A DNA stretch of 52,878 nucleotides from Gemmatimonadota bacterium. GTDB taxonomy: Bacteria; Gemmatimonadota; Gemmatimonadetes; Gemmatimonadales; GWC2-71-9. Location of the stretch: assembly GCA_003222055.1 (NCBI GenBank), contig QHUT01000061.1, positions 1 through 52,878 on the forward strand. Reading direction: 5' to 3'. Below the pieces are notes generated by a model that saw only the letters and a list, made by a program, of their open reading frames with translations, ran no database searches and was not told the origin of the DNA. This document shows, piece after piece, positions 23,835-43,586 of this stretch; position 1 is the stretch's first letter; each line of letters begins with the position of its first letter. A program made the position numbers and the translations under genes.

Positions 23835-26237
23835 TTACCTGGGCGGATCAGTCCAATCAGTGAAGCCGACGCCCTTGCCGGGGGTGGTTGCCGCGCCGTC
23901 CCAGAAGTGGGTGCCGTAGTAGTAATCCACCAGCGGCATCTCCCAGGTGTCGTCACCCACGGCGGCGAAGTTGCACTGCGTGTACAGCCACTGGTACGCC
24001 CGGAGCAACGCGCGATCCGACCAGTTCCACACGTCGTAGCCCGCCCGGTGCAGGATCACCGCCTGCGCCAACGCTCCCTGGAGCGCCTCGTACACGTAGT
24101 TCTCCTTCGGCGGCGGCCAGGTGAACCCTCCCGAGCGTCGCTGGTCGTCCGGGAGCACGCCGTCGACCGAATGCCCCTGGATCGTCGCGCCGAGCGGGTT
24201 GATCCCCACGGGGTGCTGCGGATCCGACTGCCACGCCAGGTCGCCGTAGGTGAACCCCGCGTACGAGTTGCGATCCCCCAGCCAGCCTTTGAACACCCGC
24301 GCCGCGCGGGCCAAATCGGCCGTATCGCCCAGATAGCGCGCCACGGCCATGCGGGTCGCGCCCGCATGCATTCCCCAGTTGTTGGGGCGGTCTTCGTTCG
24401 TGGAGATGAGCGTGTTGCCCTGGAGGTTCTCCGTGCGAACCTGCACCAGGAAGGTCCGGAAGCGCAGGTCCAAGTCGGCCGGTAGCCCCACCAGGTCGGC
24501 CGCGATCACGTACGCGATCAGCTCCCGACCCAACGACAGCGTTCGACCTGTCGCTTCGGTACCCATCATGCGGGTGATGGCGTCGAGCACTTCGAGGCGG
24601 TAGGTCGCGTTCCCGGTGCGGGCGTAGACCAGCGCCTTGGCCATGGTGATGACGTTGTCGGGATCGTTCTGATCGGATAGATCCGGGCTCGCGATCGTCT
24701 GCGACGCCCAGCTGTTGAGCGCATTCCAGGCCGGGCCCGACGTCGGGAGGGCGGCGATCTCCGCCGGCGTGATCCAGATACCGACCGGCCCATGTCCCGC
24801 ACCGCCCACATCGACGATGATGCTGGCCGTGCCGCTCTTGCCGTCGCTCGAGGCCGTGATGGTGACCGACCCCGCCGCGACACCCGTCACGAGACCGCTG
24901 GCGGTTACCGTGGCCAGCGAGGGCGCGCTGCTCGACCAGCTCACGACTTTCCCCGGGACCGCATTGCCGGCGGAATCTCTCGGGGTCGCCAGGAGCTGCA
25001 CCGTGGTCCCAACCAGCAGGTAGGCGGAGGCCGGACTCACGGTCACCGCGGCCACGGCCGCCGGGGGCGGCGCGGTGACCGTGACGATGGACGTCCCGCT
25101 CTTGCCTTCACTCGCCGCCGTGATGGTCGCGGATCCAGCCCCGGCACCAGTGACGAGCCCGGTGCCGCTCACCGCCGCCACGCTCGTGTTGGAGCTGCTC
25201 CACGTCACCGTTCGGCCGGTCAACGGAGCGCCGCTCGCGTCCCGCGGCGTGGCGGTCAACTGCACCGTCTGACCGACCTGCACGCCGGCCGAAGGCGGCG
25301 CGACCGTCAGCGACGCCACGGGCACGGGCGCGCTCGTGACGGTGATCGACGACGAGCCGCTCTGCCCTTCGCTGGTGGCCGTGATCGTCGCCGACCCGGC
25401 CGCACCCGCGGTCACCAGGCCGCTGCCGTCGACCGCGGCGACCGTCGCATTGCTGCTCGTCCAGGCGATCGCGCGGCCGCCGAGCAGGTTGCCGCTCGCA
25501 TCCCGCGGCGACGCGGTCAACCGCACGGTCTGACCGGACTGGACACTGGCCGAGCCGGGCGTGACCGTCACCGACGCGACCGGCGCGGCCACGTTCGTGA
25601 CCGTCACGGTCGACGAGCCGCTCTGCCCTTCGCTCGTCGCGGTGATCGTCGCGGATCCCGCCGTCGCACCGGTCACGAGACCCACGCTATTCACCGACGC
25701 CACCGCCGGCGCGCTACTCCCCCAGGTCACCGGGCGTCCCGACAGGACGCTCCCGGCCGAATCCAGGGTCACGGCGGCGAGCTGCGCGGTCGCGCCGACC
25801 AGCATGCTCATCACCGCCGGCGCCACCGCTACCGAGGCCACGGGGACGGGCGTGACGGCAACGACGGCCGTATCGGCCAAGGGGGCGGCGTCGGCTTGCG
25901 CGATGACATCGAGCGTGCCGGGCTGGGACGCCGCCTTGATTCGACCGTAGTGCCGCCCCCCGTTCGTACTGGTCCCAATGATGCTGCCACCCGTCACGCT
26001 CCAGCTCACGCTAATACTGCCGGTGTCACCGGAAGAAGTGAAGGCGACGGCCATCAGCTCAGCCGTGTCGCCGGGGTGAACCGTGAGATTTTGGGGGAAT
26101 ACGACAAGGCGCGTGACAGGATCGCCGCCCGACCCCGTGAGCACCGGCGTTTCGCAAGCCATAGCCGCCAGGGCCGCGAAGACGAGGAGCTGTTTCAGCC
26201 GCGCCAGGCGGGCCGACAGTTTGTACTTGAAGTTCAT
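23835..26237 (-). CDS. BIG2-repeat lipoprotein with C-terminal alginate-lyase-like domain
   Basis: An 800-residue lipoprotein. The signal has the lipobox AMAC after LLVFAALA. After an N-terminal domain of about 100 residues (LVVFPQNLTVHPGDTAELMAV), four to five BIG2 Ig-like domains follow, each with the frame SASVxxGQTVxLTA, then TVTWSSSN, then GSATITATSEG. The last roughly 310 residues begin GIWITPAEIAALP and form a helical domain with NNWGMHAGATRMAVARYLG, as in the alginate-lyase (alpha/alpha-toroid) superfamily. A polysaccharide-lyase or polymer-binding role near the exopolysaccharide locus is inferred; catalytic residues cannot be assigned. GAGGA lies upstream of ATG 26237. It lies 57 nt downstream of the phosphoesterase gene, probably co-transcribed. 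Confidence 0.68.
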   Translation of the reverse strand: MNFKYKLSARLARLKQLLVFAALAAMACETPVLTGSGGDPVTRLVVFPQNLTVHPGDTAELMAVAFTSSGDTGSISVSWSVTGGSIIGTSTNGGRHYGRIKAASQPGTLDVIAQADAAPLADTAVVAVTPVPVASVAVAPAVMSMLVGATAQLAAVTLDSAGSVLSGRPVTWGSSAPAVASVNSVGLVTGATAGSATITATSEGQSGSSTVTVTNVAAPVASVTVTPGSASVQSGQTVRLTASPRDASGNLLGGRAIAWTSSNATVAAVDGSGLVTAGAAGSATITATSEGQSGSSSITVTSAPVPVASLTVAPPSAGVQVGQTVQLTATPRDASGAPLTGRTVTWSSSNTSVAAVSGTGLVTGAGAGSATITAASEGKSGTSIVTVTAPPPAAVAAVTVSPASAYLLVGTTVQLLATPRDSAGNAVPGKVVSWSSSAPSLATVTASGLVTGVAAGSVTITASSDGKSGTASIIVDVGGAGHGPVGIWITPAEIAALPTSGPAWNALNSWASQTIASPDLSDQNDPDNVITMAKALVYARTGNATYRLEVLDAITRMMGTEATGRTLSLGRELIAYVIAADLVGLPADLDLRFRTFLVQVRTENLQGNTLISTNEDRPNNWGMHAGATRMAVARYLGDTADLARAARVFKGWLGDRNSYAGFTYGDLAWQSDPQHPVGINPLGATIQGHSVDGVLPDDQRRSGGFTWPPPKENYVYEALQGALAQAVILHRAGYDVWNWSDRALLRAYQWLYTQCNFAAVGDDTWEMPLVDYYYGTHFWDGAATTPGKGVGFTDWTDPPR

Positions 26238-26294
26238 GGTCCTCGACTCCTCATCGAGCGAGTGACACGGCCCGGAGCCCCGAGTCCGCGAAGG

Positions 26295-29252
26295 TCATGG
26301 CGTGAAGAACTCGGACATGTCGGGAGCGCTGGCCGCCGCGCCCGGATACACCGTCACGCCGAGCCCCTTCAGGATCAGCCGCAGCGTGCTGGGATGCTGA
26401 TACGTGATCGACGACTGGTACCCGCGCTTCGCCTTGGGACTGATGACCGCCCAGAAGACCCGGCCGCCGCCCAGCGCATTGTCGCCGCCCGCCTCATCGA
26501 ACGTGATGATCAACAAGCCGTCCTGCTGGAACACGGGGCTGGCGAGGAGCGGCGCGATGTTCGCGCTGAGCCACCGGTCGGCCGTGCTCAACGAGCAGTC
26601 GTGCGCGTCGTTGCACAGGTTGGGCACGATGTTCGAGAAGCTGGGCAACGTCCCGTTCGCGAGATCCGTGGGGAACTGGGTGAACGGGACGATATTGCAC
26701 GCCTGCGTGGCATTGTTCGCCACGTCCGAGAGCAACGCGAAGACGTTGTGTTTCCGCGCGTAGCCCCCCGTATCACCGCCCAGATAGCAGGCGTTGGGAA
26801 GATTCTCGGCGTACGACTTCCACGTCTTGCCCGCCGCGAGCAGCTCCCGCACGACGTTGTCCACCGTCTGGATGGTCGATGAGCCGTCGTTGTTCGTCAG
26901 GACCTGCCCCGTCGCCAGCTCGAAGTAGTTGCCGATCGACGGATGCGTGTTGGCGTAGTACTGCGTCGACAGCCCGTACTGCTGCGCCAGACCCATCAGG
27001 TACGGCATCGACGAGCTCGTGACGTCGACGGCATCCGTGTTCTCCTCGGTCACGATGAACACGTGCCCGAACTGTGAGGTGCCCGGAGGCGTGACCGTGA
27101 TGGCGGCGGTGCCGCTCTGCCCCTCGCTCGTCGCGGTGATAATCGCCGTGCCCGCGACCTGGCCGGTCACGAGCCCCGTAGCGCTCACCGTCGCGACGCT
27201 CGTATTGCTCGAGGCCCATGTCACCGTGCGCCCCGTCAGCGGACTCCCGGTGGCGTCTTTGGGCGTCGCGGTCAGCTGCAGCGTCGAGCCCACTGGTACG
27301 GTCGCCGAGGTGGGGGTGACGCTCACCGATGCCACCGGCGGGTGCACGACGGTCACGGTCGACGTGCCGTTCTGCCCCTCGCTCGTCGCCGTGATCGTCG
27401 CCGTGCCAGCCACCTTGCCGGTCACGAGCCCGCTCGCGCTCACCGTCGCGACGCTCGTATTGCTCGAGGCCCAGGTCACGGTGCGGCCCGAGAGCGCATT
27501 GCCGCTCGAGTCACGCGCCGTCGCCGTGAGCTGCACGGTCTTCCCCTCATTCACGGAGGGGGTGGCCGGCGTCACCGATACCGACGCCACCGGGACGTGC
27601 ACCACGGTGATGGCCGAAGTCCCGCTCTGCCCCTCGCTCGTCGCCGTGATGGTGGCCGTGCCGGCGACCTTGCCGGTCACCAACCCGCTGGCGCTCACCG
27701 TCGCGACGGTCGTATTGCTCGAGGCCCAGGTCACCGTACGGCCCGAGAGCGCATTGCCGCTCGCGTCACGAGGCGTCGCCGTCAGCTGCGCGGTCTTCCC
27801 CTCGAACACCTGGGCGGTCGCGGGCGTCACCGACACCGACGCCACCGGCACGCCCGCGGCCGTGACCGTGATGGCCGCGATGCCGTTCTGCCCCTCGCTC
27901 GTCGCCGTGATCGTGGCCGTGCCCGCGACCTGGCCGGTCACGAGCCCCGTAGCGCTCACGGTCGCGACGGTCGTATTGCTCGAGGTCCAGGTCACGACGC
28001 GGCCGGGCAGCGGATTGCCGCTCGCGTCCCGCGGCGTGGCCACGAGCTGCACCGTCCCGCCCACCGGCAGCGACGCGGTCGCCGGGGTCACGTCGACCGA
28101 GGCCACGGGCGCCGGGGGCACGCCGCCCCCCAGCGTGAAGTTGCAGACGGTGTGTGTCCCGGCGTCCGAGTACAGCGCCCAATTGGCGAGCGAGGCCACC
28201 GCGTTCTGCTCGGTCCGGAACGCGAGGCCCGTCCCGATCGTCTGCTCCGCGCCGCCGGCCGGCGTCACGTAGGCCGAATAGGTGTGGCTCGGCACGTCGA
28301 CGGCCAGGCGGAAGTGGTAGCTCGTTCCCGCCGTGTACGCGATGGCGCTCGCCGCGTAGGCGCCGCCGTTGCGCGCATCGATGGTCCCGCCCGAATTGAA
28401 GCGCACAATGACGGCCAGGTCCGCGAACGCAGCCGCCGGACCGGCCGACAGGCCGGTGACCGCGTCGAGTGCTGCCCCGTTCGGCGTGGCGTCGAATTCG
28501 ACGGTGAACGACCCCGTCTGCGCCGCCGTCAACGGCGTGTTGACCCACGCGAGAGAGCTGACGACGCACCCCGGCGGCGGGGGCGACGCTTGAACCGTGA
28601 CGACGGCGGCACCGCTCTTCGCCTCGCTGCTCGCCGTAATCGTCGCCGACCCGGCGGCCCGCCCCGTCACGAGCCCGGTCCCGCTCACGCGCGCGATCGT
28701 CGTATCGGTCGACGACCAAGTCACCGCCCGGCCCGAGAGGGCGTTCCCGTTCGCGTCCCTGGGCGTCGCCGTGAGCTGTACCGTCTGCCCGACCGCGACG
28801 CTGGCGGACGGCGGCGACACCGTCACCGCCGCCACCGGCACCTGGCACCCCGACACGGTGACGCTGGCGGTGTCGGACAGGTTGCCGGGATGGCTCGTCG
28901 CGATGACCCGGTACCCGCCGCAATTGGCGTTCCGGTAGTAGCCGTAATGCCGCCCGCCGCTCGAGCCCGTGTCGACGGTGCCGCCGGTCGCGCTCCAGGT
29001 CACGCTGATCGACGCCGTGTCCCCGGCCGCGGTCAGTCCGACCGCGACGAAGTCCTGCGTCTGATTTGGTTGCAGCGTGACGGCGTTGGGAGTGACGACG
29101 AATACGGCGACCGAATTATTGTCGACGCCCGCTACGGTGATGGGGCGTTCGCAGCTGTACACCACCGCGACGCTGAGAACCAGCGCCGCGGTGGCGAGAA
29201 CACGGGCTCTCAGGAGGGACAACCGGCAGGCCAGCTTGTGCATGAACGTCAC
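26295..29252 (-). CDS. BIG2-repeat lipoprotein with C-terminal phosphoesterase (AcpA/PLC-type) domain
   Basis: A 985-residue secreted protein. The GTG at 29252 is chosen because GGAGG lies 6 nt upstream; the ATG three codons later is the alternative. The signal has the core VLATAALVLSVAVVYSC with a probable lipidated Cys. Domains in order: an N-terminal Ig-like unit, one BIG2, a laminin-G-like insert (SGTFTVEF-type, with VRFNSGGTIDARNGG), four tandem BIG2 domains with near-identical sequence, then a phosphoesterase domain of the PF04185 family (HVFIVTEENTDA, then NTHPSIGNYFELATG, then LLIITFDEAGGDN). PF04185 includes phospholipase C and acid phosphatase AcpA. The BIG2 stalk presumably displays the enzyme on the cell surface. 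Confidence 0.82.
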   Translation of the reverse strand: MTFMHKLACRLSLLRARVLATAALVLSVAVVYSCERPITVAGVDNNSVAVFVVTPNAVTLQPNQTQDFVAVGLTAAGDTASISVTWSATGGTVDTGSSGGRHYGYYRNANCGGYRVIATSHPGNLSDTASVTVSGCQVPVAAVTVSPPSASVAVGQTVQLTATPRDANGNALSGRAVTWSSTDTTIARVSGTGLVTGRAAGSATITASSEAKSGAAVVTVQASPPPPGCVVSSLAWVNTPLTAAQTGSFTVEFDATPNGAALDAVTGLSAGPAAAFADLAVIVRFNSGGTIDARNGGAYAASAIAYTAGTSYHFRLAVDVPSHTYSAYVTPAGGAEQTIGTGLAFRTEQNAVASLANWALYSDAGTHTVCNFTLGGGVPPAPVASVDVTPATASLPVGGTVQLVATPRDASGNPLPGRVVTWTSSNTTVATVSATGLVTGQVAGTATITATSEGQNGIAAITVTAAGVPVASVSVTPATAQVFEGKTAQLTATPRDASGNALSGRTVTWASSNTTVATVSASGLVTGKVAGTATITATSEGQSGTSAITVVHVPVASVSVTPATPSVNEGKTVQLTATARDSSGNALSGRTVTWASSNTSVATVSASGLVTGKVAGTATITATSEGQNGTSTVTVVHPPVASVSVTPTSATVPVGSTLQLTATPKDATGSPLTGRTVTWASSNTSVATVSATGLVTGQVAGTAIITATSEGQSGTAAITVTPPGTSQFGHVFIVTEENTDAVDVTSSSMPYLMGLAQQYGLSTQYYANTHPSIGNYFELATGQVLTNNDGSSTIQTVDNVVRELLAAGKTWKSYAENLPNACYLGGDTGGYARKHNVFALLSDVANNATQACNIVPFTQFPTDLANGTLPSFSNIVPNLCNDAHDCSLSTADRWLSANIAPLLASPVFQQDGLLIITFDEAGGDNALGGGRVFWAVISPKAKRGYQSSITYQHPSTLRLILKGLGVTVYPGAAASAPDMSEFFTP
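27085..28110 (-). repeat. Four tandem near-identical BIG2-encoding units of about 250-260 bp
   Basis: Within the phosphoesterase gene, plus-strand blocks near 27103, 27355, 27607 and 27868 each begin with a variant of CCGTTCTGCCCCTCGCTCGT. They share long identical stretches at DNA level, so this is a candidate for unequal recombination that changes stalk length. Confidence 0.7.
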
Positions 29253-29280
29253 GGGATGCCTCCGCAGGATCACAAATGCA

Positions 29281-29322
29281 CGGGCCGCCAACGTCGACCT
29301 GTGTCGATCCGCTGGCGGCCCG
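29281..29322 (-). promoter_or_regulatory. Leader hairpin of the phosphoesterase gene
   Basis: CGGGCCGCCA and TGGCGGCCCG form a perfect 10-bp stem with a nested TCGA...TCGA in the loop. It lies about 30 nt before the GTG start, probably in the 5' leader. The rest of 29253-29529 shows no gene and no convincing promoter. Confidence 0.4.
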
Positions 29323-29529
29323 GCAAGCGTGGCGGAGGGAGTCCGCTATAGCCCCGTGGCTCTGCGTCGCCGTCTTTCGACGGGTTTGCTCTGAGCAGCG
29401 TGCTCTGTAGTTGGCGCCGAGTCGCCCCGGCGTGTCCATTGGCGCGAACCTATCGGGATGGCAGAACCGCAGCGGTGATACACGTCACGCGGCGCGCGTT
29501 AGTGCAACTGTCGCCCGGACAACACACGT

Positions 29530-30783
29530 TCATCCCCCAATTTCCACGCCCACGCCGGCGCGCCGCAGCTTCCCGAGCAGCCACGCCTGCACCCGGGCGG
29601 TGACTTCGACGACGCCGTCTACCTGCGCTTCGCCCAACACCTCCGAGTCGCGGTGCAGCGCGGCCAGCAGCTTGCCGTCTCCGAGTGGAACGCGGATACG
29701 GGCGATGGGACGCAGCGCTTGCGCGGAGGTGCGGAGCACGGAGCGCAGCCCGTCCACGCCCCCCCATCGCGGATTGCGGATTGCGGATTGCGGATTCGAC
29801 GCGGTAAGGACCGCGTGCGGGTAGTGCTCTCGGACCCGGGCAAGAAACACGTCCGGCTCAGGGAGCAGATCCGCTTTGTTGAACACGTAGATCACCCGTT
29901 GCCGGTCTGCTGATTCATTGCCAATCCGCAATCCGAAATCCGCAATCCGCAATTCCCGATCCACCACGTCGACCTGCTCCTCCCATGTCGGGTGGGAAGC
30001 GTCGATCACGTGCAGCAGCAGGTCGGCCTCGCGCGCCTCCTCGAGCGTGGCGCGGAACGAAGCGACCAGATGATGGGGTAGCTTGCGGATGAACCCCACC
30101 GTGTCGGTCAACCGGAAGCGGTAGCCCCCGCCCACATCGACTTCGCGCGTCAGCGTGTCGAGCGTGGCGAACAGCCGGTCCTCGACCAGGATTTCGGCCC
30201 CGGACAGGGCCCGCAAGAGACTCGACTTTCCGGCGTTGGTGTAGCCGACCAGCGCGGCGCTGGGAAGGTCGCGGCGTCCCTGACGCTGGTTGGCGCGATG
30301 GTGGGCGACCTCTTCGAGGCGCCGCTTCAGGTTGGAGATCTTGCGCCGGATGACCCGCCGGTCGGTCTCGAGCTGCGTCTCACCGGGCCCACGCAGTCCG
30401 ATGCCGCCGCGGATGCGCGAGAGATGGGTCCACATCCGCGTGAGCCGCGGGAGCAGGTACTCGAGCTGCGCCAGCTCGACCTGCATCTTGGCCTCGGCCG
30501 AGCGCGCGCGCGTCGCGAAGATGTCGAGGATCACCTCGGTGCGATCCATCACCCGCACCGCGAGCGCTTTCTCCAGGCTCGACCCCTGCACCGGCGAGAG
30601 CGCCTCGTCGAACAACACCAGCGTCGAGCCCGTATCGTGCAGCACGCCCTTGAGCTCCTCGACCTTCCCCTGCCCGAGGTAGAACGCGGGCGTGGGGGCT
30701 TCGACGCGCTGATGGGTCCGCCCCACGACCTCGGCGCCCGCCGTGTCGGCGAGCCGGCCCAGCTCGTCGAGATGGTCGTCCAC
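29530..30783 (-). CDS. hflX: GTPase HflX
   Basis: A 417-residue ribosome-associated GTPase that splits stalled or hibernating ribosomes. The N-terminal HflX domain includes AFYLGQGKVEEL and VLFDEALSPVQ; the linker has GIGLRGPGETQLETDRR. The G domain has G1 GYTNAGKSS, G3 DTVGF and G4 NKAD. Two low-complexity inserts are encoded by heptamer arms: RELRIADFGLRIG just before the strand leading to NKAD, and NPQSAIRNPRW in the G5 loop. Family-typical sequence (IQPPVERAFLVGAPRKGS) continues in frame about 39 codons upstream of GTG 30783, back to 30900, yet contains no ATG, GTG or TTG. The true start is therefore unresolved. Confidence 0.9.
   Translation of the reverse strand: MDDHLDELGRLADTAGAEVVGRTHQRVEAPTPAFYLGQGKVEELKGVLHDTGSTLVLFDEALSPVQGSSLEKALAVRVMDRTEVILDIFATRARSAEAKMQVELAQLEYLLPRLTRMWTHLSRIRGGIGLRGPGETQLETDRRVIRRKISNLKRRLEEVAHHRANQRQGRRDLPSAALVGYTNAGKSSLLRALSGAEILVEDRLFATLDTLTREVDVGGGYRFRLTDTVGFIRKLPHHLVASFRATLEEAREADLLLHVIDASHPTWEEQVDVVDRELRIADFGLRIGNESADRQRVIYVFNKADLLPEPDVFLARVREHYPHAVLTASNPQSAIRNPRWGGVDGLRSVLRTSAQALRPIARIRVPLGDGKLLAALHRDSEVLGEAQVDGVVEVTARVQAWLLGKLRRAGVGVEIGG
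29769..29796 (+). repeat. Heptamer arm GCGGATT x4, left arm in hflX
   Basis: Four perfect consecutive copies of GCGGATT, inverted relative to 29923-29950. It encodes the NPQSAIRNP insert in the G5 loop of HflX. Confidence 0.9.
29923..29950 (-). repeat. Heptamer arm AATCCGC x4, right arm in hflX
   Basis: Four copies of AATCCGC (one with a final A), the reverse complement of the arm at 29769, separated from it by 126 nt of native hflX. It encodes the LRIADFGLRIG insert. Confidence 0.9.
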
Positions 30784-30904: not shown

Positions 30905-31384
30905 CTATTTCAACAGCTTCATCAGCGGCACGTTCCCCTTGCCGGTCAACGCCACCGTCTTGGTTCCCACGGGCGTGTCCAGGAACACGCGACCCGTCAC
31001 CCCGTATCCCAGGGCCTGCCGGGTGAGCAGGGCCTTCGCTCCCGCCCCCAGTCCCGCCCAGGCGAATCGGACCGGCACCACCACCCGGCTGTGATTGGTG
31101 GGCGAGAGGTCGAGCGGCCGGTCCAGCAGCGCGTCGCCGAAGTGCGTGCCCTCCAGATCGACCCCCACTTCGAGCCGCGTGGAGCGGAGCCGGTAGTCGT
31201 TGGGGTTCCAGACGTCGAACACCAGATCGAACGTGCCACCGGTGAGCCCGATGCCGGTGACGTCGATCTCCTGCAGCGTGAGATCGGGCTCGGTGAATGA
31301 GAGGCGGCCGAGCGTGGCGCAGGAGAGGCACAAGAAAACCCCGAGAAACGGGAAACGGGACACGGGAAACGAGCGCGCCGTCAC
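30905..31384 (-). CDS. LEA2/WHy-domain lipoprotein
   Basis: A 159-residue protein with a short hydrophobic leader (FPFLGVFLCLSCATL) that suggests a lipoprotein signal. A single LEA type 2 (WHy) domain follows, with LQEIDVTGIGLTGGTFDLVFDVWNPN condensed into the family pattern of an NPN-containing strand and ending GKGNVPLMKLLK. WHy domains are small immunoglobulin-like folds linked to desiccation and stress tolerance; the role here is unknown. The GTG at 31384 overlaps the rarA stop (GTGA). The first residues are encoded by a heptamer hairpin, so the N terminus is uncertain; GTG 31363 is the alternative. hflX follows on the same strand. Confidence 0.72.
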   Translation of the reverse strand: MTARSFPVSRFPFLGVFLCLSCATLGRLSFTEPDLTLQEIDVTGIGLTGGTFDLVFDVWNPNDYRLRSTRLEVGVDLEGTHFGDALLDRPLDLSPTNHSRVVVPVRFAWAGLGAGAKALLTRQALGYGVTGRVFLDTPVGTKTVALTGKGNVPLMKLLK

Positions 31385-31412
31385 GTTTCCCGTTTCCCCT
31401 TTCCCGTTTCCC
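31343..31412. repeat. Heptamer hairpin at the rarA/LEA2 junction
   Basis: Four GGGAAAC-type heptamers (31343-31370), a 14-nt spacer, then four TTTCCC-type heptamers (31385-31412) predict a stem of up to 28 bp. The spacer contains the rarA stop and the LEA2 start. The right arm supplies the final RETGKGKRET of RarA. Confidence 0.85.
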
Positions 31413-32769
31413 GCTTCAGATTCTCCCACCACTCCATGCGCTTCTTGATGTCCTTCTCGAACCCGAACTCGGTCGGCTCGTACCATTTCTGCCCCCGCAG
31501 CGCTTCCGGCAGGTACTCCTGCGGCACGTACGCGTCCGCGAAGGCATGGGCGTATTGATACCCCGCCCCATAGCCCAGGTCCTCCATGAGCTTGGTCGGC
31601 GCATTGCGGATGTGCAGCGGCACCGCCTCGGACGGATGTGTGTGGGCCGCCTCCATGGCCTTGTCGAACGCCGCGTATACGCGGTTCGACTTGGGCGCGG
31701 TCGCGAGATACACGACCGCCTGCGCGAGGGCGAGCTCTCCCTCGGGCGAGCCGAGGAAGTGGTACGCCTCCTTGGCCGCGAGCGCGACGGACAGGGCGCG
31801 CGGATCCGCCAGTCCCACGTCTTCGGCGGCCATGCGCACCACCCGGCGCGCGACGTACAGCGGATCCTCACCGCCCGCCAACATCCGGGCCAGCCAGTAG
31901 AGCGAGCCTTCCACGTCGGACCCACGCACGGCCTTATGCAGGGCGGAGATGAGGTTGAAGTGCTGCTCGCCGGATTTGTCGTAGGCGGGCAGCGGGCGCT
32001 CGAGGACGGACTGTACGAGCTCGGGAGAAAGGGGAATGGGGAATGCGGAAAGGGTCGACGCATGCTTGAGCACCGCCTCGAGCGTGTTGAGCGCCCGCCT
32101 CGCGTCCCCTTGCGCATGTCGCACTAACAGGTCCAGGGCCTCCTCGGCGAGCTCGACCTTTCCCCTTTCCCCATTCCCCGTTCCCACCTCGCGCACCGCG
32201 CGTTCGATCACGGCCCGTATGTGGGCATCGGTGAGGGGCTCGAACACGAACACGCGGCAGCGCGACAAGAGCGGCGCCGTCAGCTCGAAGCTGGGGTTCT
32301 CCGTGGTGGCGCCGATCAGCGTGATGATGCCGTTCTCGACCCACGGGAGGAACGCGTCCTGCTGCGCCCGGTTGAAGCGGTGGATCTCGTCGCAGAACAG
32401 GATCGTGCCGCGCCCTTCGTACTTGAGCCGCTCCTCCGCTTGCTTGATGATCTCGCGCACGCGGGCCACACCCTCGGTGACCGCGGAGAAGGGCTCGAAG
32501 TGACGATCGGTGTGGTTCGCGATCAGCCGGGCGAGGGTCGTCTTGCCCGAGCCGGGCGGGCCCCAGAAGATGCACGACCCCACGTCGCCGCGCCGGATCA
32601 GCTCCCCCAGCGCCTTCCCGGGCCCGAGCAGGTGCTCCTGGCCGAGAAACTCCTCGAGGCGCGTCGGCCGCATGCGCGCCGCGAGGGGCTCCGCGGAGCG
32701 GGAGAACAGGGTGGGGTCAGACACGGGAAAGGGGAAACGGGAAATGGGAAACGTATTGCACGAAAACAT
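31381..32769 (-). CDS. rarA: Replication-associated recombination protein A (MgsA/RarA AAA+ ATPase)
   Basis: A 462-residue clamp-loader-like ATPase that acts at stalled replication forks. PLAARMRPTRLEEFLGQEHLL is the family N terminus, followed by Walker A GPPGSGKTT, Walker B ILFCDEIHRF, sensor 1 GATTENPSF and the C-terminal tetramerisation part (AHAFADAYVPQEYLPE). Heptamer arms encode GTGNGERGK and STLSAFPIPLSPE, which bracket the sensor-2 region, plus the final RETGKGKRET tail. The true start is unclear: the ATG at 32769 has a weak GGGG upstream and brings a repeat-coded leader; a GTG at 32724 starts right at SDPTLF but has only pyrimidines upstream. It is divergent from the four-helix-bundle gene. 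Confidence 0.9.
   Translation of the reverse strand: MFSCNTFPISRFPFPVSDPTLFSRSAEPLAARMRPTRLEEFLGQEHLLGPGKALGELIRRGDVGSCIFWGPPGSGKTTLARLIANHTDRHFEPFSAVTEGVARVREIIKQAEERLKYEGRGTILFCDEIHRFNRAQQDAFLPWVENGIITLIGATTENPSFELTAPLLSRCRVFVFEPLTDAHIRAVIERAVREVGTGNGERGKVELAEEALDLLVRHAQGDARRALNTLEAVLKHASTLSAFPIPLSPELVQSVLERPLPAYDKSGEQHFNLISALHKAVRGSDVEGSLYWLARMLAGGEDPLYVARRVVRMAAEDVGLADPRALSVALAAKEAYHFLGSPEGELALAQAVVYLATAPKSNRVYAAFDKAMEAAHTHPSEAVPLHIRNAPTKLMEDLGYGAGYQYAHAFADAYVPQEYLPEALRGQKWYEPTEFGFEKDIKKRMEWWENLKRETGKGKRET
32023..32050 (+). repeat. Heptamer arm (GGGGAAT-like x4), left arm in rarA
   Basis: Four degenerate GGGGAAT-type heptamers, inverted relative to 32158-32185, with 107 nt of native rarA between them. 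Confidence 0.75.
32158..32185 (-). repeat. Heptamer arm (CTTTCCC-like x4), right arm in rarA
   Basis: Four heptamers ending in CCC (two CTTTCCC, then CATTCCC and CGTTCCC), the inverted partner of 32023-32050. Confidence 0.8.
32725..32752 (+). repeat. Heptamer arm (GGGAAAN x4), left of the four-helix gene
   Basis: Four GGGAAA-plus-one heptamers with last bases G, C, T and C. It is the inverted partner of 33192-33219; together they bracket a 439-nt segment holding the four-helix-bundle gene. Confidence 0.9.
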
Positions 32770-32827
32770 ACCCCGTCCGCAACACACGGATGCCGAGGAC
32801 TCTCGGACGCGGCTCTATCGTCAGTCC

Positions 32828-33253
32828 ATGCGACAGCTTGAGTCGTTGGACGCCTGGCGTACAGCGCAAGAACTGGCCGAGGCCGCGTACCGACTCACCA
32901 TGACCTCCCCGCTCGACAGACACTTCGGACTCATCGATCAGATACGACGCGCCGCGGTGTCGGTCCCGGCGAACATGGCGGAAGGATACGCCCTGAGCAC
33001 CACCGCGCAATTCATCCGGTGCTTGAGAATCTCGCTCGGGTCCGCAGCGGAGCTCCGAACTCATCTGGATTTGGTCCGACGCCTCAAGCTGGCCGACGAT
33101 GAGGCCACGACGCAAGCCGTCGACCTCTGCACGAGAGTCGTCTCCATGGTGGTCGGCCTGCTTCGCAAGCTTGGGCAGCGCAGTCGTTCACGTTTCCCGT
33201 TTCCCGTTTCCCGCTTCCCGACTACGAGAGCCGATCCAACAGCGTCTTCGTGA
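32828..33253 (+). CDS. Four-helix-bundle protein (23S rRNA intervening-sequence protein family)
   Basis: A 141-residue protein and the only plus-strand gene in this block. LESLDAWRTAQELAEAAYRL, GLIDQIRRAAVSVPANMAEG, RCLRISLGSAAELRTHLDL and a last helix through VVSMVVGLLRKLG match the S23/IVP four-helix-bundle family, which forms pentameric, often basic barrels. Such proteins were first found inside intervening sequences of 23S rRNA, and relatives (Avd) serve diversity-generating retroelements. Neither an rRNA gene nor a reverse transcriptase is present here. The last about 20 codons are encoded by the right heptamer arm and then overlap the 3' end of the ZIP gene by 32 nt. No ribosome site precedes ATG 32828. 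Confidence 0.85.
   Translation: MRQLESLDAWRTAQELAEAAYRLTMTSPLDRHFGLIDQIRRAAVSVPANMAEGYALSTTAQFIRCLRISLGSAAELRTHLDLVRRLKLADDEATTQAVDLCTRVVSMVVGLLRKLGQRSRSRFPFPVSRFPTTRADPTASS
33192..33219 (-). repeat. Heptamer arm (GTTTCCC x4), right of the four-helix gene
   Basis: Three perfect GTTTCCC units plus GCTTCCC, ending 3 nt before the ZIP stop codon. It is the inverted partner of 32725-32752 and is translated as part of the four-helix protein tail. Confidence 0.9.
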
Positions 33254-33941: not shown

Positions 33942-35103
33942 GGGCGAGCAGCTGCTCCCGCGTATTGCGCGTCGGGTCCTCGAGCACGTCGGCGAGCAGT
34001 CGCGCCAGCGTCTCGCCCACCTCGGGGCCGGCCCGCACGCCCGCCGCGATCAAGTCGTCGCCGGTGACGGCGAGGTCCTTCAGGGTCAGGGGATCCTTTG
34101 CGGCGCGGATGGACGACACCACGCCGGGAAGCGGGACGGGGGAGGAGGGAAGAGCGAGTAAATCGTCGGCGTACTCACCGAGCTCCGACAGCCACCGCCG
34201 GACGGCCGGCAGGTGCTTCGGATCCGGATACTTGTCCAGCCATTGTCCGATCACGCGCCCTCGCTCGATGTCCTTGTTGGACGCCTTGAGTCGCGTCAGG
34301 AGCGACGCGGGGTCCCCTGCCAGAAATGACGTGATCAAAACCGGATCCCGTGGCAGGCTGTCGACCGGGCTCTTCCCCCTTCCCTCGTCCCTCTTCCCGC
34401 CGATCTCCGGCAGCCAGATCCGCGCCGCCCCCACGTCGATCCAGAGCGCGAGCAGCTTCGAGACGCGGCCCGCCGTCCGGATCCCCTTGAACCACTCCTC
34501 CCGCACCCGCTCGGCCGACAGCTGCGACAACCCCTGGACGTTTGCCTTCGCCGCCTCGAGCGTGCCGCCGTGGATGCGGAAGTCGAAGCGCGCGCTGAAA
34601 CGCAACGCCCGCAAGATCCGGAGATAGTCCTCCTGGAAGCGCCAGTTCGCGTCCCCCACCGAGCGGATCAGCTTCTTGGCCAGGTCCGCGGCGCCCTTGA
34701 AGGGGTCGCGCCACTCGTGCCGGATCGGATGGTAGGCGATCGCGTTGATCGTGAAATCGCGCCGCGCGAGGTCGTCGGTGAGCGACACGCCGAACTCCAC
34801 CACGGCGTGCCGGCCGTCGGTGCGGATGTCGCGGCGGAACGTGGTGACCTCGTGGGCCCGGTTGTCGCGATCGAGCACCGCCACGGTGCCGTGCTCGATC
34901 CCCACCGGCACCGTGCGCTTGAACAGGCGCCGTACTTCCTCCGGCGGCGCGGCGGTCGTGAGATCGAAGTCGTGGTTCTCGAGTCCCAACAGATTGTCGC
35001 GGATCGCGCCGCCGACGCACCAGGTCTCGTACCCGGCCGTTTCCAGCTTCTGGGCGATCCGCACCACCGTTTCGGGAATGGCGAGCCGGGCGGGAAACCC
35101 CAT
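33934..35103 (-). CDS. cca: CCA tRNA nucleotidyltransferase
   Basis: A 389-residue class II nucleotidyltransferase that adds or repairs the tRNA 3' CCA end. The head has CVGGAIRDNLLG, the catalytic HDFDLTT (Asp-x-Asp), RRDFTINAIAY and FQEDYLRILRALRFSARF. The helical neck and body follow. Two heptamer arms are translated inside the body: GGKRDEGRGKSPVDS and ALPSSPVPLPG. No C-terminal HD domain is evident. ATG 35103 is used. It lies 8 nt downstream of acpS and overlaps the ZIP start. Confidence 0.92.
   Translation of the reverse strand: MGFPARLAIPETVVRIAQKLETAGYETWCVGGAIRDNLLGLENHDFDLTTAAPPEEVRRLFKRTVPVGIEHGTVAVLDRDNRAHEVTTFRRDIRTDGRHAVVEFGVSLTDDLARRDFTINAIAYHPIRHEWRDPFKGAADLAKKLIRSVGDANWRFQEDYLRILRALRFSARFDFRIHGGTLEAAKANVQGLSQLSAERVREEWFKGIRTAGRVSKLLALWIDVGAARIWLPEIGGKRDEGRGKSPVDSLPRDPVLITSFLAGDPASLLTRLKASNKDIERGRVIGQWLDKYPDPKHLPAVRRWLSELGEYADDLLALPSSPVPLPGVVSSIRAAKDPLTLKDLAVTGDDLIAAGVRAGPEVGETLARLLADVLEDPTRNTREQLLARV
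34126..34153 (+). repeat. Heptamer arm (GGGAAGC-like x4), left arm in cca
   Basis: Four heptamers each starting GGGA (endings AGC, CGG, GGA, AGA), inverted relative to 34371-34398 with 217 nt of native cca between. Confidence 0.75.
34371..34398 (-). repeat. Heptamer arm (TCTTCCC-like x4), right arm in cca
   Basis: Four heptamers ending TCCC (TCTTCCC twice, plus CCTTCCC and TCGTCCC). It encodes GGKRDEGRGK in Cca. Confidence 0.75.
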
Positions 35104-35508: not shown

Positions 35509-36282
35509 TCAGCCGCACAGCACGCTGCCGCCGTTGACATTGAGGATCTCGCCCGTGATGTGGCGCGCCAGATCGGAGCAGAGAAACACGATGGGCCCGG
35601 CGACGTCGTCGGCGCTCGCGACACGGCCCAGCGGGATGGTCTCCTCGATCTCCCGCTTCCCTCTTCCCGCTTCCCTCCCGTACGGCTCCGCCGACATCTC
35701 GGTATCGACCCACCCCGGCGCCACGCAGTTCACGCCGATCTGCCGCGGGGCGAGCTCGACGGCGAGGGACTTGGTGAACGCGATGACGGCGCCTTTGGTC
35801 GCCGCGTAATCGGCGTGGAACGCCTCGCCGCGCTGCCCCGCCGTGGAAGAGACGAGCACCACCTTGCCGCCGTCGGGCAGCAGCGGAATGCCCGCGCGGC
35901 ACACGTACAGCACGGCGTCCAGGTTGGCGTGCATCGTCGCGTCCCACTGCGCGTCGGTCATGCGCTCGAGCGGTACCTCGTCGGGTGGCCAGATGCCGTG
36001 ATTCACGATCAGCAGGTCGAGGCCGCCGAGGGCCTGCACCGCCTCAGCGACCGCCCGCTCTGCCGCGGCCGGATCTCCCAGGTCACCCCCGATCGCTACC
36101 GCCCTGTGCCGCCCTGTGCCGCCCTCGACCGCCCTGACGGTTTCTTCGGCGTCTTCCCTGCGGCTGCGGTAACCGACCGCGACCCGGCATCCGGCGCGCG
36201 ACAGCATCACCGCCGTCGCCCGCCCGATGCCCCGCCCCCCGCCGGTGACGAAGGCACGCTTCCCCGAAAGATCGATCACCAC
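35509..36282 (-). CDS. Short-chain dehydrogenase/reductase, FabG-like
   Basis: A 257-residue classical SDR. It has the cofactor motif VTGGGRGIG, the NHG segment (VNHGIW, where NNAG is usual), the catalytic Ser in VLVSSTAG and the Tyr/Lys pair in YAATKGA, then PGWVDTEM. Reduction of a 3-oxoacyl thioester is possible, but SDR substrates cannot be read from sequence. Repeat-coded segments occur: EGGTGRHRA from a decamer array, and YGREAGRGKREIEE in the substrate-lid loop from a heptamer arm. The start is probably GTG 36282 or 36279 after GGGGAT; upstream codons are repeat-derived. acpS follows directly, suggesting a lipid-metabolism operon. Confidence 0.85.
   Translation of the reverse strand: MVIDLSGKRAFVTGGGRGIGRATAVMLSRAGCRVAVGYRSRREDAEETVRAVEGGTGRHRAVAIGGDLGDPAAAERAVAEAVQALGGLDLLIVNHGIWPPDEVPLERMTDAQWDATMHANLDAVLYVCRAGIPLLPDGGKVVLVSSTAGQRGEAFHADYAATKGAVIAFTKSLAVELAPRQIGVNCVAPGWVDTEMSAEPYGREAGRGKREIEETIPLGRVASADDVAGPIVFLCSDLARHITGEILNVNGGSVLCG
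35648..35675 (-). repeat. Single heptamer arm (GCTTCCC-like x4) in the SDR gene
   Basis: Four heptamers ending CCC, translated as part of YGREAGRGKRE. I found no inverted partner within the gene. Confidence 0.65.
36101..36140 (-). repeat. Four decamers GCCCTGTGCC-like in the SDR gene
   Basis: Two perfect and two diverged copies of a 10-bp unit, again four in number, translated as the VEGGTGRHRA loop. Confidence 0.65.
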
Positions 36283-36293
36283 CCATCCCCATT

Positions 36294-36365
36294 GCGGATT
36301 GGGGATTGCGGATTGCGGATTGGAAGACCGCCCATCGAATCCGCAATCCGCAATCCGCAATCCGC
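36294..36365. repeat. Heptamer hairpin between gmhA and the SDR gene
   Basis: Four GCGGATT units (second one GGGGATT) at 36294-36321, a 16-nt loop, and four perfect AATCCGC units at 36338-36365. It predicts a 28-bp stem with one mismatch, starting 3 nt after the gmhA stop on the minus strand; it could act as a terminator or processing site. Confidence 0.92.
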
Positions 36366-36367
36366 GA

Positions 36368-36943
36368 TCATGTGTTCAGCTGTGCTTCCACAATCGCACA
36401 GATAACGTGCTCGACCGCGAGCTGCAGCTCCTGGATATGCGAGGTCTCATCGGCCGGTATCACGAGGGAGTCGTCGACGAGCCGCCGCACGGCGCCGCCG
36501 CCCTTGCCGAGCAGCGCGACCACGCGGGCGCCCTTGGCGCGCGCCGCCTGGGCCGCGCGCACCACGTTCGCGCTCTCGCCGCTGGTCGAGTGCAGCACGA
36601 GCAGGTCGCCGGGCCGCACCACGGCCTCCACCTGCCGGGCGAACACCGCGTCGAACCCCAGATCGTTGCCGCACGCCGTGAGCAGCGACGTGTCGGTCGT
36701 CAACGCGACAGCCGGGAGAGCCCGGCGGGTGGGCCCGTAGCGGACCACGTACTCGGCGGCCACGTGTTGGGCGTCGGCGGCGCTGCCGCCGTTCCCCGCG
36801 AACCACAGCGTCCCACCGCCGCGCAGGGTGTCGACGTAGAGGGCGGCCAACCGCGCGATGTCGGTGGCATGTTGCTCGGCGACCCGGGACGCGAGCGCCG
36901 CGAGGCCGGCGAGGCCGACCCGCGCCTGCTCGGCGGGGGTCAC
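36368..36943 (-). CDS. gmhA: SIS-domain phosphoheptose isomerase
   Basis: A 191-residue SIS-fold protein. It has the substrate loop GNGGSAADAQHVAAEYV, ALTTDTSLLTACGND, LHSTSGESANV and the C-terminal SHIQELQLAVEHVIC, matching GmhA, which converts sedoheptulose 7-phosphate to heptose 7-phosphate for LPS core or glycan heptose. The GTG start overlaps the GGGPS-family stop (GTGA). DiaA-type paralogues share the fold, but the Glu and His of the active site fit GmhA. Confidence 0.85.
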   Translation of the reverse strand: MTPAEQARVGLAGLAALASRVAEQHATDIARLAALYVDTLRGGGTLWFAGNGGSAADAQHVAAEYVVRYGPTRRALPAVALTTDTSLLTACGNDLGFDAVFARQVEAVVRPGDLLVLHSTSGESANVVRAAQAARAKGARVVALLGKGGGAVRRLVDDSLVIPADETSHIQELQLAVEHVICAIVEAQLNT

Positions 36944-37994: not shown

Positions 37995-40627
<2,633 letters not shown>

Positions 40628-40728
40628 GGGGGGAATATAGTGCGCGCCACGGGGCAACTGAAAGGCGAGCGCGGAGTTACCGCTTAGGCCGGGGGGCGAC
40701 CGCCCGCGGGCACCGACGCCCCCCCGTG

Positions 40729-40753
40729 AACCCCGGGGCGTGGCCCCGGGGTT
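40729..40753. repeat. REP-type palindrome, left end
   Basis: AACCCCGGGGC, loop GTG, GCCCCGGGGTT: a perfect 11-bp stem, the inverted copy of 41190-41214. Confidence 0.85.
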
Positions 40754-40765
40754 ATCCTACCCACG

Positions 40766-41167
40766 CTACCGTGGGATACGGTCGGGATGTTGCTGAAACT
40801 GCCCTGCCAAGTAGGACCGCGTCGGGAGGACGTCGCGTCGCGACAGAGAGCCGGCGTAGTAACCGCGACACCATCGCACGCGCTGGGCATCCAAACGCGC
40901 TGAGTTGATGCGCCGCGCCGATTCTGACTTCGCGTCCCGGACAAACGCCGCCAGCGTCGCGTGTGGCGGGTAGCTCACGACGACGTGCACGTGATCGCTC
41001 AACACGGCTTGAGCGTGAACACGGACGAGAGTACGTCGCCCCGCATCGAGCACCGAATCCGTAATTACCGAGACGTCGAGTTTACGGATGGCAGGGACGC
41101 GCCGCCATGTATGCCACGTGACGTGAGCGTACAGTCCGCACGCCTGGTGAGGTCCCCGCTTTCGCAC
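40766..41167 (-). CDS. REP-associated tyrosine transposase (IS200/Y1 family)
   Basis: A 133-residue Y1 transposase. It has the HUH metal-binding motif in SDHVHVVVSYPP and the catalytic Tyr in TRSYLAGQF, with a basic helix between (RDAKSESARRIN). It nicks and rejoins single-stranded DNA at palindromic ends; here the cognate ends are the flanking REP hairpins. The GTG at 41167 is chosen because GGAGGG lies exactly 6 nt upstream; the open frame continues to an ATG inside the right hairpin. It appears intact and is somewhat shorter than typical RAYTs. Confidence 0.85.
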   Translation of the reverse strand: MRKRGPHQACGLYAHVTWHTWRRVPAIRKLDVSVITDSVLDAGRRTLVRVHAQAVLSDHVHVVVSYPPHATLAAFVRDAKSESARRINSARLDAQRVRWCRGYYAGSLSRRDVLPTRSYLAGQFQQHPDRIPR

Positions 41168-41189
41168 GCGACGCCCTCCAGGGTAGGTT

Positions 41190-41214
41190 AACCCCGGGGC
41201 CATGCCCCGGGGTT
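41190..41214. repeat. REP-type palindrome, right end
   Basis: AACCCCGGGGC, loop CAT, GCCCCGGGGTT: a perfect 11-bp stem, the inverted copy of 40729-40753. Confidence 0.85.
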
Positions 41215-41245
41215 CACAAACGTGTGCCGGCCACCGTTGCTCACC

Positions 41246-43468: not shown

Positions 43469-43582
43469 GAATGGCGGGAGGTTGGGGAGGACGGGGGAGG
43501 TGGGGGAGGTTTGGGGAGGTTGTCACGTCAGCGGGGCAACCTCCCCCAACCTCCGCCAACCTCCCCAACCTCCCCAACCTGC
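43469..43582. repeat. Inverted nonamer arrays (TTGGGGAGG / CCTCCCCAA)
   Basis: About five TTGGGGAGG-like units (43469-43520), a 16-nt spacer and about five AACCTCCCC-like units (43537-43582) form a long imperfect hairpin between yraN and the second wza, followed on the plus strand by CTTTTTAG. It has the same inverted-array design as the heptamer arms but a 9-bp period. Confidence 0.8.
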
Positions 43583-43586
43583 CTTT

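Follow-up and report, generated by a model that had tools for sequence, protein, structure and literature searches.

Genes of the PF05635 four-helix-bundle family were found enclosed by inverted arms of short tandem repeats, and arms around these genes are the rule, not an accident. We propose, at a probability of roughly 0.6, a system of genes and non-autonomous hairpins in which the four-helix protein would read the spacing and the fold of the arms and would promote arm copying via host enzymes. The element under study lies in a window of 52,878 nucleotides (the whole stretch of DNA that was analysed) from a Gemmatimonadota bacterium, for which the initial annotation had described a four-helix-bundle gene between inverted heptamer arms. 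The features of the window, with the evidence used for each, are:

32828 to 33253, plus strand: PF05635/TIGR02436 four-helix-bundle gene (profile matches, AlphaFold model, structure match)
32723 to 32753, plus strand: left arm of the gene, G-rich tandem heptamers of the GGGAAAC family (lag scan, flank alignment)
33187 to 33220, plus strand: right arm, the left arm in reverse complement; its translation forms the protein tail (lag scan, translation)
29766 to 29796, plus strand: arm 1 of the hflX pair (GGATTGC), in-frame insertion (lag scan, comparison with congeners and relatives)
29922 to 29955, plus strand: arm 2 of the hflX pair, with native HflX sequence containing the NKxD motif between the arms (lag scan, comparison)
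31342 to 31371, plus strand: arm 1 of the short-loop pair (GGGAAAC) (lag scan, congener comparison)
31381 to 31417, plus strand: arm 2 of the short-loop pair (lag scan, congener comparison)
32024 to 32054, plus strand: arm 1 of the rarA pair (GGGGAAT) (congener comparison, pairing scan)
32157 to 32185, plus strand: arm 2 of the rarA pair (lag scan, congener comparison)
34125 to 34154, plus strand: arm 1 inside the PolyA_pol/tRNA nucleotidyltransferase gene (pairing scan, congener comparison)
34370 to 34400, plus strand: arm 2 inside the same gene (pairing scan, congener comparison)
36291 to 36369, plus strand: gene-less hairpin with GGATTGC arms at 36291-36322 and 36338-36369 (lag scan, congener comparison)
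40053 to 40084, minus strand: lone heptamer array inside alaS, no partner found (lag scan, pairing scan)
43476 to 43583, plus strand: gene-less 9-mer hairpin of the GGAGGTTG family, its unit shared with the gene arms at L002 (pairing scan)

The four-helix gene runs from an ATG at 32828 to a stop at 33253, encodes 141 residues and is located between rarA and the ZIP gene. It had been described as the only plus-strand gene among minus-strand ones, and all neighbors checked (hflX, rarA, ZIP, PolyA_pol, SDR, SIS and alaS) were indeed found on the minus strand. Its 3′ end crosses the right arm and enters the end of the ZIP gene; as had been noted, the arm is read as the protein tail, and translation of the window gene gives RSRFPFPVSRFP. 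The suggested S23/IVP-family identity was confirmed by profile matches far above the cut-offs (PF05635, 99.6 bits against 33.8; TIGR02436, 98.3 bits against 24), and the fold agrees. The AlphaFold model (pLDDT 92) is a confident four-helix bundle whose top fold match is 2GSC (Xanthomonas XCC0516; TM 0.91 by target length), followed by 2RLD (BT_0352) and then weakly by Avd (4DWL; TM 0.65 by query length). A sequence search with the window protein also recovered 2GSC (E 9e-21). XCC0516 is a homopentamer of four-helix bundles according to PMC4990558 and to the title of Lin et al. 2006 as cited in PMC3936711. Near-invariant residues include W10, Q38, R41, S45, N49, E52, G53 and E75, a motif that had been described before as GxxRxxxSxxxNxxE (PMC3936711). 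The same protein was given by a family-level relative (G017) and by a deposited Gemmatimonadales MAG locus (L201), which places the organism in Gemmatimonadales by kinship. A profile search with the window protein found PF05635 as the sole domain, with no Y1 tyrosine transposase and no transposase domain; judged by these profiles, the protein carries no recognized catalytic domain.

The arms were examined by aligning the 250 bases upstream of the gene to the reverse-complemented 250 bases downstream. The window gene scored 23.5 compared to a maximum of 12 in 100 shuffles, and of 1500 places drawn at random from about 340 kb of this genome, 7 scored 15 or more. At the strict threshold of the scan, the window contained 13 lag-7 arrays and 8 lag-9 arrays but none at lags 4, 5, 6 and 8. 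The inverted heptamer arms described in the initial annotation were thus recovered, but not the fixed number of units: arms hold about four to five units, not always four, and the notion that arms always consist of four heptamers was discarded because 8- to 11-nt units and variable counts exist elsewhere. The single arrays at 38332 and 40053 had no partner at the pairing threshold. The lag-7 array at 35651-35677 was rejected as an arm, being a conserved coding stretch (GRGKREIE) in the SDR gene, and serves as a warning for automatic arm counts. Elsewhere in the window, a c-di-GMP-I riboswitch (Rfam RF01051, 57.6 bits) was located at 29311-29400 on the minus strand, adjoining a repeat-rich ORF region (24801-29291). 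Nine copies of a 260-nt direct repeat, 60 to 80% identical to the reference copy, lie at 24801-28840 within large minus-strand ORFs, which probably encode a multidomain surface protein.

Eleven PF05635 genes, each encoding a different protein, were found in this genome. Arms were strong at eight of them and weak at one, and every armed gene had a unit of its own: heptamers (GGGAAAC, GGGGCTC, GGGAAGN, GGGGAGC and GGAATGC), 8-mers (AGACGCCY and CACGACGC) or a 9-mer (GGAGGTTGT). Adding 29 genes of relatives brought the total to 40, of which 33 were armed at a score of 15, and another batch of 40 genes of relatives gave 38. A scan of GTDB species genomes provided 80 loci from Bacteroidota, Planctomycetota, Chloroflexota, Pseudomonadota (including Xanthomonas codiaei), Acidobacteriota, Cyanobacteriota, Elusimicrobiota and others, plus two Methanophagales archaeal MAGs. 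Here, a score of at least 14 was reached by 58 of the 80 loci compared to 1 of 278 control boxes from the same loci, and a score of at least 16 by 47 compared to none. One of the two archaeal loci passed (L256, score 14.5), and the Xanthomonas gene at L279 had (CGGGGAC)n arms. Arm structures are thus present in isolates and in many phyla; genomes carried up to 14 gene copies, and the median distance between the arms around a gene was 449 nt. The expectation that every four-helix gene is armed therefore held for most genes, in the order as across phyla, but its strict form fails because some genes (L005 and L011 in this genome) have no detectable arms. At eight loci of order-level relatives (L043, L055, L056, L165, L167, L174, L189 and L192), the four-helix genes had inverted ends of about 50 to 148 nt without a clear short period, possibly representing decayed arms or a different arm type.

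Arm units were 7-mers or 8-, 9-, 10- and 11-mers, and repeat spacing and protein clade clearly go together. When 92 proteins were labelled by unit length (7; 8; 9 to 11), the protein tree required 17 changes, compared to a mean of 30.3 after shuffling (0 of 200 shuffles as low), although the strength of this clustering should not be overread, because the alignment is short, much of the branching is poorly resolved and near-identical copies contribute to it. One clade of 22 proteins (SH-aLRT 98) had only 8- to 11-mers and no 7-mers. The match between arm family and protein subclade on which the initial annotation had staked its idea was therefore seen for unit length. The median number of units per arm was 5.0 for 7-mers, 4.4 for 8-mers and 4.9 for 9-mers, with counts below three dropped by the detector.

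Arm pairs were also found without a gene. In a census of about 395 kb of this genome plus the gene loci, gene-less hairpins with loops of about 10 to 130 nt belonged to the same unit families as the gene arms. The 8-mer CACGACGC forms the arms of the gene at L006 and hairpins at L028:13634, L030:401 and L030:16456; the 8-mer AGACGC forms the arms of the gene at L004 and a hairpin at L031:2114; and the 9-mer GGAGGTTG was found around the gene at L002 and in hairpins at window position 43476 and at L029:6394. In every heptamer pair sampled, the G-rich arm came first, and orientation was likewise constant within each of the 8-mer and 9-mer families. This constant polarity opposes independent random insertion of single arms, which would give both orientations. 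Two further 8-mer hairpins (L025:2624-2735 and L028:8975-9056) belong to a GGACGGGC family for which no four-helix gene with this unit was found in the genome; the partner gene may be lost or may lie in unsequenced parts.

Comparison of congeners at the rarA-ZIP site showed gene and arms in G000, G001, G005 and G006, a shortened gene interrupted by a stop in G002, and no gene in G009 (93% identical flanks), G007, G008 and G003. Strains with an empty locus, which the earlier proposal called for, therefore exist, and hairpin sites can be empty too: the short-loop pair at 31342-31417 is present in G000 and G001 but absent in G009, G005 and G003, G009 lacks the hairpins at 36291 and L020:15631, and the one at L029:12431 is missing from both G009 and G005. 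The arm letters at the rarA-ZIP site vary among congeners (GGGAAAC, GGGACAC and GGGGAAW), and the unit of the PolyA_pol pair differs between them. Site turnover is slower than letter turnover, since many arm sites are common to congeners. No target-site duplication was evident at the empty and filled sites compared, where diverged flanks blur the junctions to the base. No transposition event was seen, many arm sites are old and shared by congeners, and since all 11 genes encode different proteins, the gene shows no trace of having copied itself recently; RAYTs likewise show distinct gene copies without visible recent self-copying (PMC3116915). At a locus of G009 (L155, contig C116) matching L007:1380-1885, a REP-like palindrome (CCCCGGGCTTGCGCCCGGGG) occupies the place of the four-helix unit of our genome, as if this one intergenic spot could take either kind of element.

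Arms inside coding sequence change in pairs. In hflX, both arms occupied the same places in 8 of 8 genus genomes examined, and the heptamers differed (GGATTGC, GGAACGC, GGAATGC, GGGATGC and GGAGTGC). In the arms, 90% of cells pair and 18 cells change on both sides (7 genomes); covariation was 0.269 compared to 0.127 when shuffled (0 of 500) and at most 0.093 when slid (7 to 8 pairs). HflX lacks both stretches in six PF05635-less relatives, which excludes mere native loops, and also in three carriers (G010, G039 and G053); both stretches do occur, with another heptamer, in G019, a carrier from a sister genus. The congener, covariation and relative data thus indicate that both stretches were inserted in frame on either side of native DNA and evolve together as a single unit. 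A similar pattern of arm pairs with paired change was seen in rarA, where both arms co-vary across the genus and are absent in G003, and in PolyA_pol. Arm pairs that frame native coding DNA, as in hflX, do not fit a plain cut-and-paste transposon. Complementarity kept through two-sided change is also what would be expected if the protein bound mRNA hairpins of paired arms, its own and those of others, and controlled their stability or RNase III cutting, with the arms spreading by selection and chance and not through the protein. This RNA regulon is the main rival, and rRNA intervening sequences (IVS) with the same protein family are indeed cut out by RNase III at a 28-bp stem (PMC4990558). However, inverted-repeat correction on DNA would yield the same paired change, arm sites come and go among close congeners in unrelated genes and coding loops, and the fast change of the arm units is left unexplained. 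We therefore regard a regulon as unlikely, at about one chance in five.

Arms and gene were next compared across genomes. The excess of a heptamer pattern correlated with PF05635 copy number (Spearman 0.37, p 0.003; 61 genomes), the generic G-rich pattern being a weak probe because units vary between genomes. No paired arrays of 7- to 10-mers were seen in 667 kb from seven relatives without PF05635 (stated completeness of the assemblies on which absence calls rest, 95 to 100%), compared to 54 in 733 kb of seven carriers with similar G+C content; samples were contig starts for most genomes, and some of the sequence from our own genome was chosen on gene-bearing contigs. Within a single genus (g39), the gene-less G087 and G193 had no pairs in 188 kb, compared to 13 pairs in about 153 kb of the carriers G189, G121 and G274 (10, 3 and 2 genes). 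Arm density among carriers was uneven (0 to 14 per 100 kb, in small samples). Paired arms in genomes lacking the gene, the finding that would have spoken against the initial idea, were thus not encountered in the sampled sequence. As a correlation, arms depend on gene presence; the correlation could also come from shared dependence on a third factor.

Slippage and fold-back copying are able to create tandem arrays and perfect inverted repeats. Hence, the host could make the arms by slippage and strand switching at G-rich repeats and the four-helix gene could be a tolerated passenger, and the heptameric quadruplex repeats of Xanthomonas and Nostoc have been described without a link to a gene (PMC4692102). 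This would not account for the difference between genomes with and without the gene, which holds even inside a single genus of similar G+C, for a unit length that follows the protein clade or for arms found around this single gene family across many phyla, which makes the passenger reading improbable. A retroelement, in which the protein would act like Avd together with a reverse transcriptase in trans and arm RNA would be turned into DNA, is far less probable still. The fold is common to both proteins, and PF05635 was the commonest Pfam family near diversity-generating retroelements (DGRs) in one survey (PMC10053308). However, no RVT_1 match was found in this genome or in nine congeners, and RVT_1 enzymes in 5 of 61 relatives were all outside the genus. 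The link to DGRs is thereby largely rejected as a mechanism for RVT_1 enzymes in the genus, within assembly completeness, and an unrecognized polymerase would be needed. Simple repeats in a G+C-rich draft assembly might suggest that the arms reflect chance, low complexity of the DNA or an assembly artefact, but this is next to impossible given the shuffles and random boxes, the same structures in isolates and in many phyla and the different units at one orthologous site among congeners.

In the favored gene and hairpin system, the gene with its two arms would be the autonomous unit, and gene-less pairs of the same unit families would stand to it as non-autonomous relatives, in the way that REPINs stand to RAYTs. 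The four-helix protein may recognize arms by repeat spacing and folded form and not by fixed letters; this is likelier because letters change fast while spacing, polarity and pairing persist, and recognition of one specific heptamer is unlikely, as congeners carry different units at one and the same site. The protein would then promote copying of arms to new places or from arm to arm. Since it has no recognized catalytic domain and no RVT_1 enzyme is at hand, host replication and repair enzymes are invoked, for example, in fold-back template switching stabilized by the protein. More tentatively, we guess that one arm unit may be bound per protein subunit, because the 2GSC homolog is a five-membered ring and arms have a median of about five units at any unit length. 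Such an arrangement would resemble that of TRAP.

By descent, the closest known system is the rRNA IVS. The IVS of Coxiella comprises 428 nt, close to our 449-nt median between arms; it has a terminal stem of 28 bp, and three to four heptamers in tandem precede the ORF (PMC4990558). IVS with an S23p ORF (Coxiella, Leptospira) share the protein family and an ORF within terminal inverted repeats, and the window element likewise has its S23p ORF between complementary ends. Unlike IVS, which lie inside rRNA genes and are removed by RNase III, it lies between protein-coding genes; an Rfam scan found no rRNA in the window, so the element is not in a 23S rRNA gene. The present system also differs by up to 14 copies per genome and by gene-less pairs, some inside coding sequence. 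The rRNA IVS elements are probably one case of the gene and hairpin system. REPIN-RAYT systems have a distinct gene copy per family, flanked by repeats that it is thought to mobilize, and several families per genome (PMC3116915). They resemble the present system in inverted doublets that occur as gene-less hairpins and in a gene flanked by its own repeat, but the protein described here is a four-helix bundle without a Y1 domain, and its arms are tandem arrays of 7- to 11-mers with fast-changing letters, some in frame inside genes. The window also contains a Y1_Tnp ORF (IS200-like, RAYT-like; 40766-41203, minus strand) within 37-nt inverted REP-like palindromes (GTGAACCCCGGGGCGTGGCCCCGGGGTT); this region (40726-41217) appears from its domain and repeats to be a classical RAYT/REP unit unrelated to the four-helix system. 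Heptameric G-quadruplex repeats of Xanthomonas and Nostoc (GGGNATC; cyanobacterial STRR) prefer four units, form 70 to 75 closely spaced, convergent inverted pairs in each Xanthomonas genome and have been described as simple repeats generally apart from mobile elements (PMC4692102). The present arms share with them G-rich heptamers, about four units and close inverted pairs, a likeness at the level of sequence, and these repeats look like gene-less arms of this system. Avd shares the fold but needs a reverse transcriptase and template and variable repeats.

A wider and more tentative reading, which we hold at somewhat below even odds, is a separate class of mobile DNA whose sole encoded protein, a ring-forming four-helix bundle lacking any recognized catalytic domain, would measure units of 7 to 11 nt, one per subunit, and host replication enzymes would write arm pairs around any DNA, including native gene segments and the protein's own gene. 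It would extend across bacteria and at least one archaeal MAG, with rRNA IVS, the Xanthomonas and cyanobacterial heptamer quadruplex repeats and perhaps Avd as offshoots. No paper joining PF05635 to heptamer repeats was found in the open-access literature, most subscription journals and preprints being outside reach. PF05635 is a common family that lacks a known function, and the arms would give it a testable substrate. Conversely, heptameric repeats have been catalogued in numerous genomes with no agent to account for them, and PF05635 is a candidate maker. The link between PF05635 and arms provides a possible source for 23S rRNA intervening sequences and suggests a second, unrelated REPIN-like route to a gene and its satellites that operates without a known transposase or reverse transcriptase.
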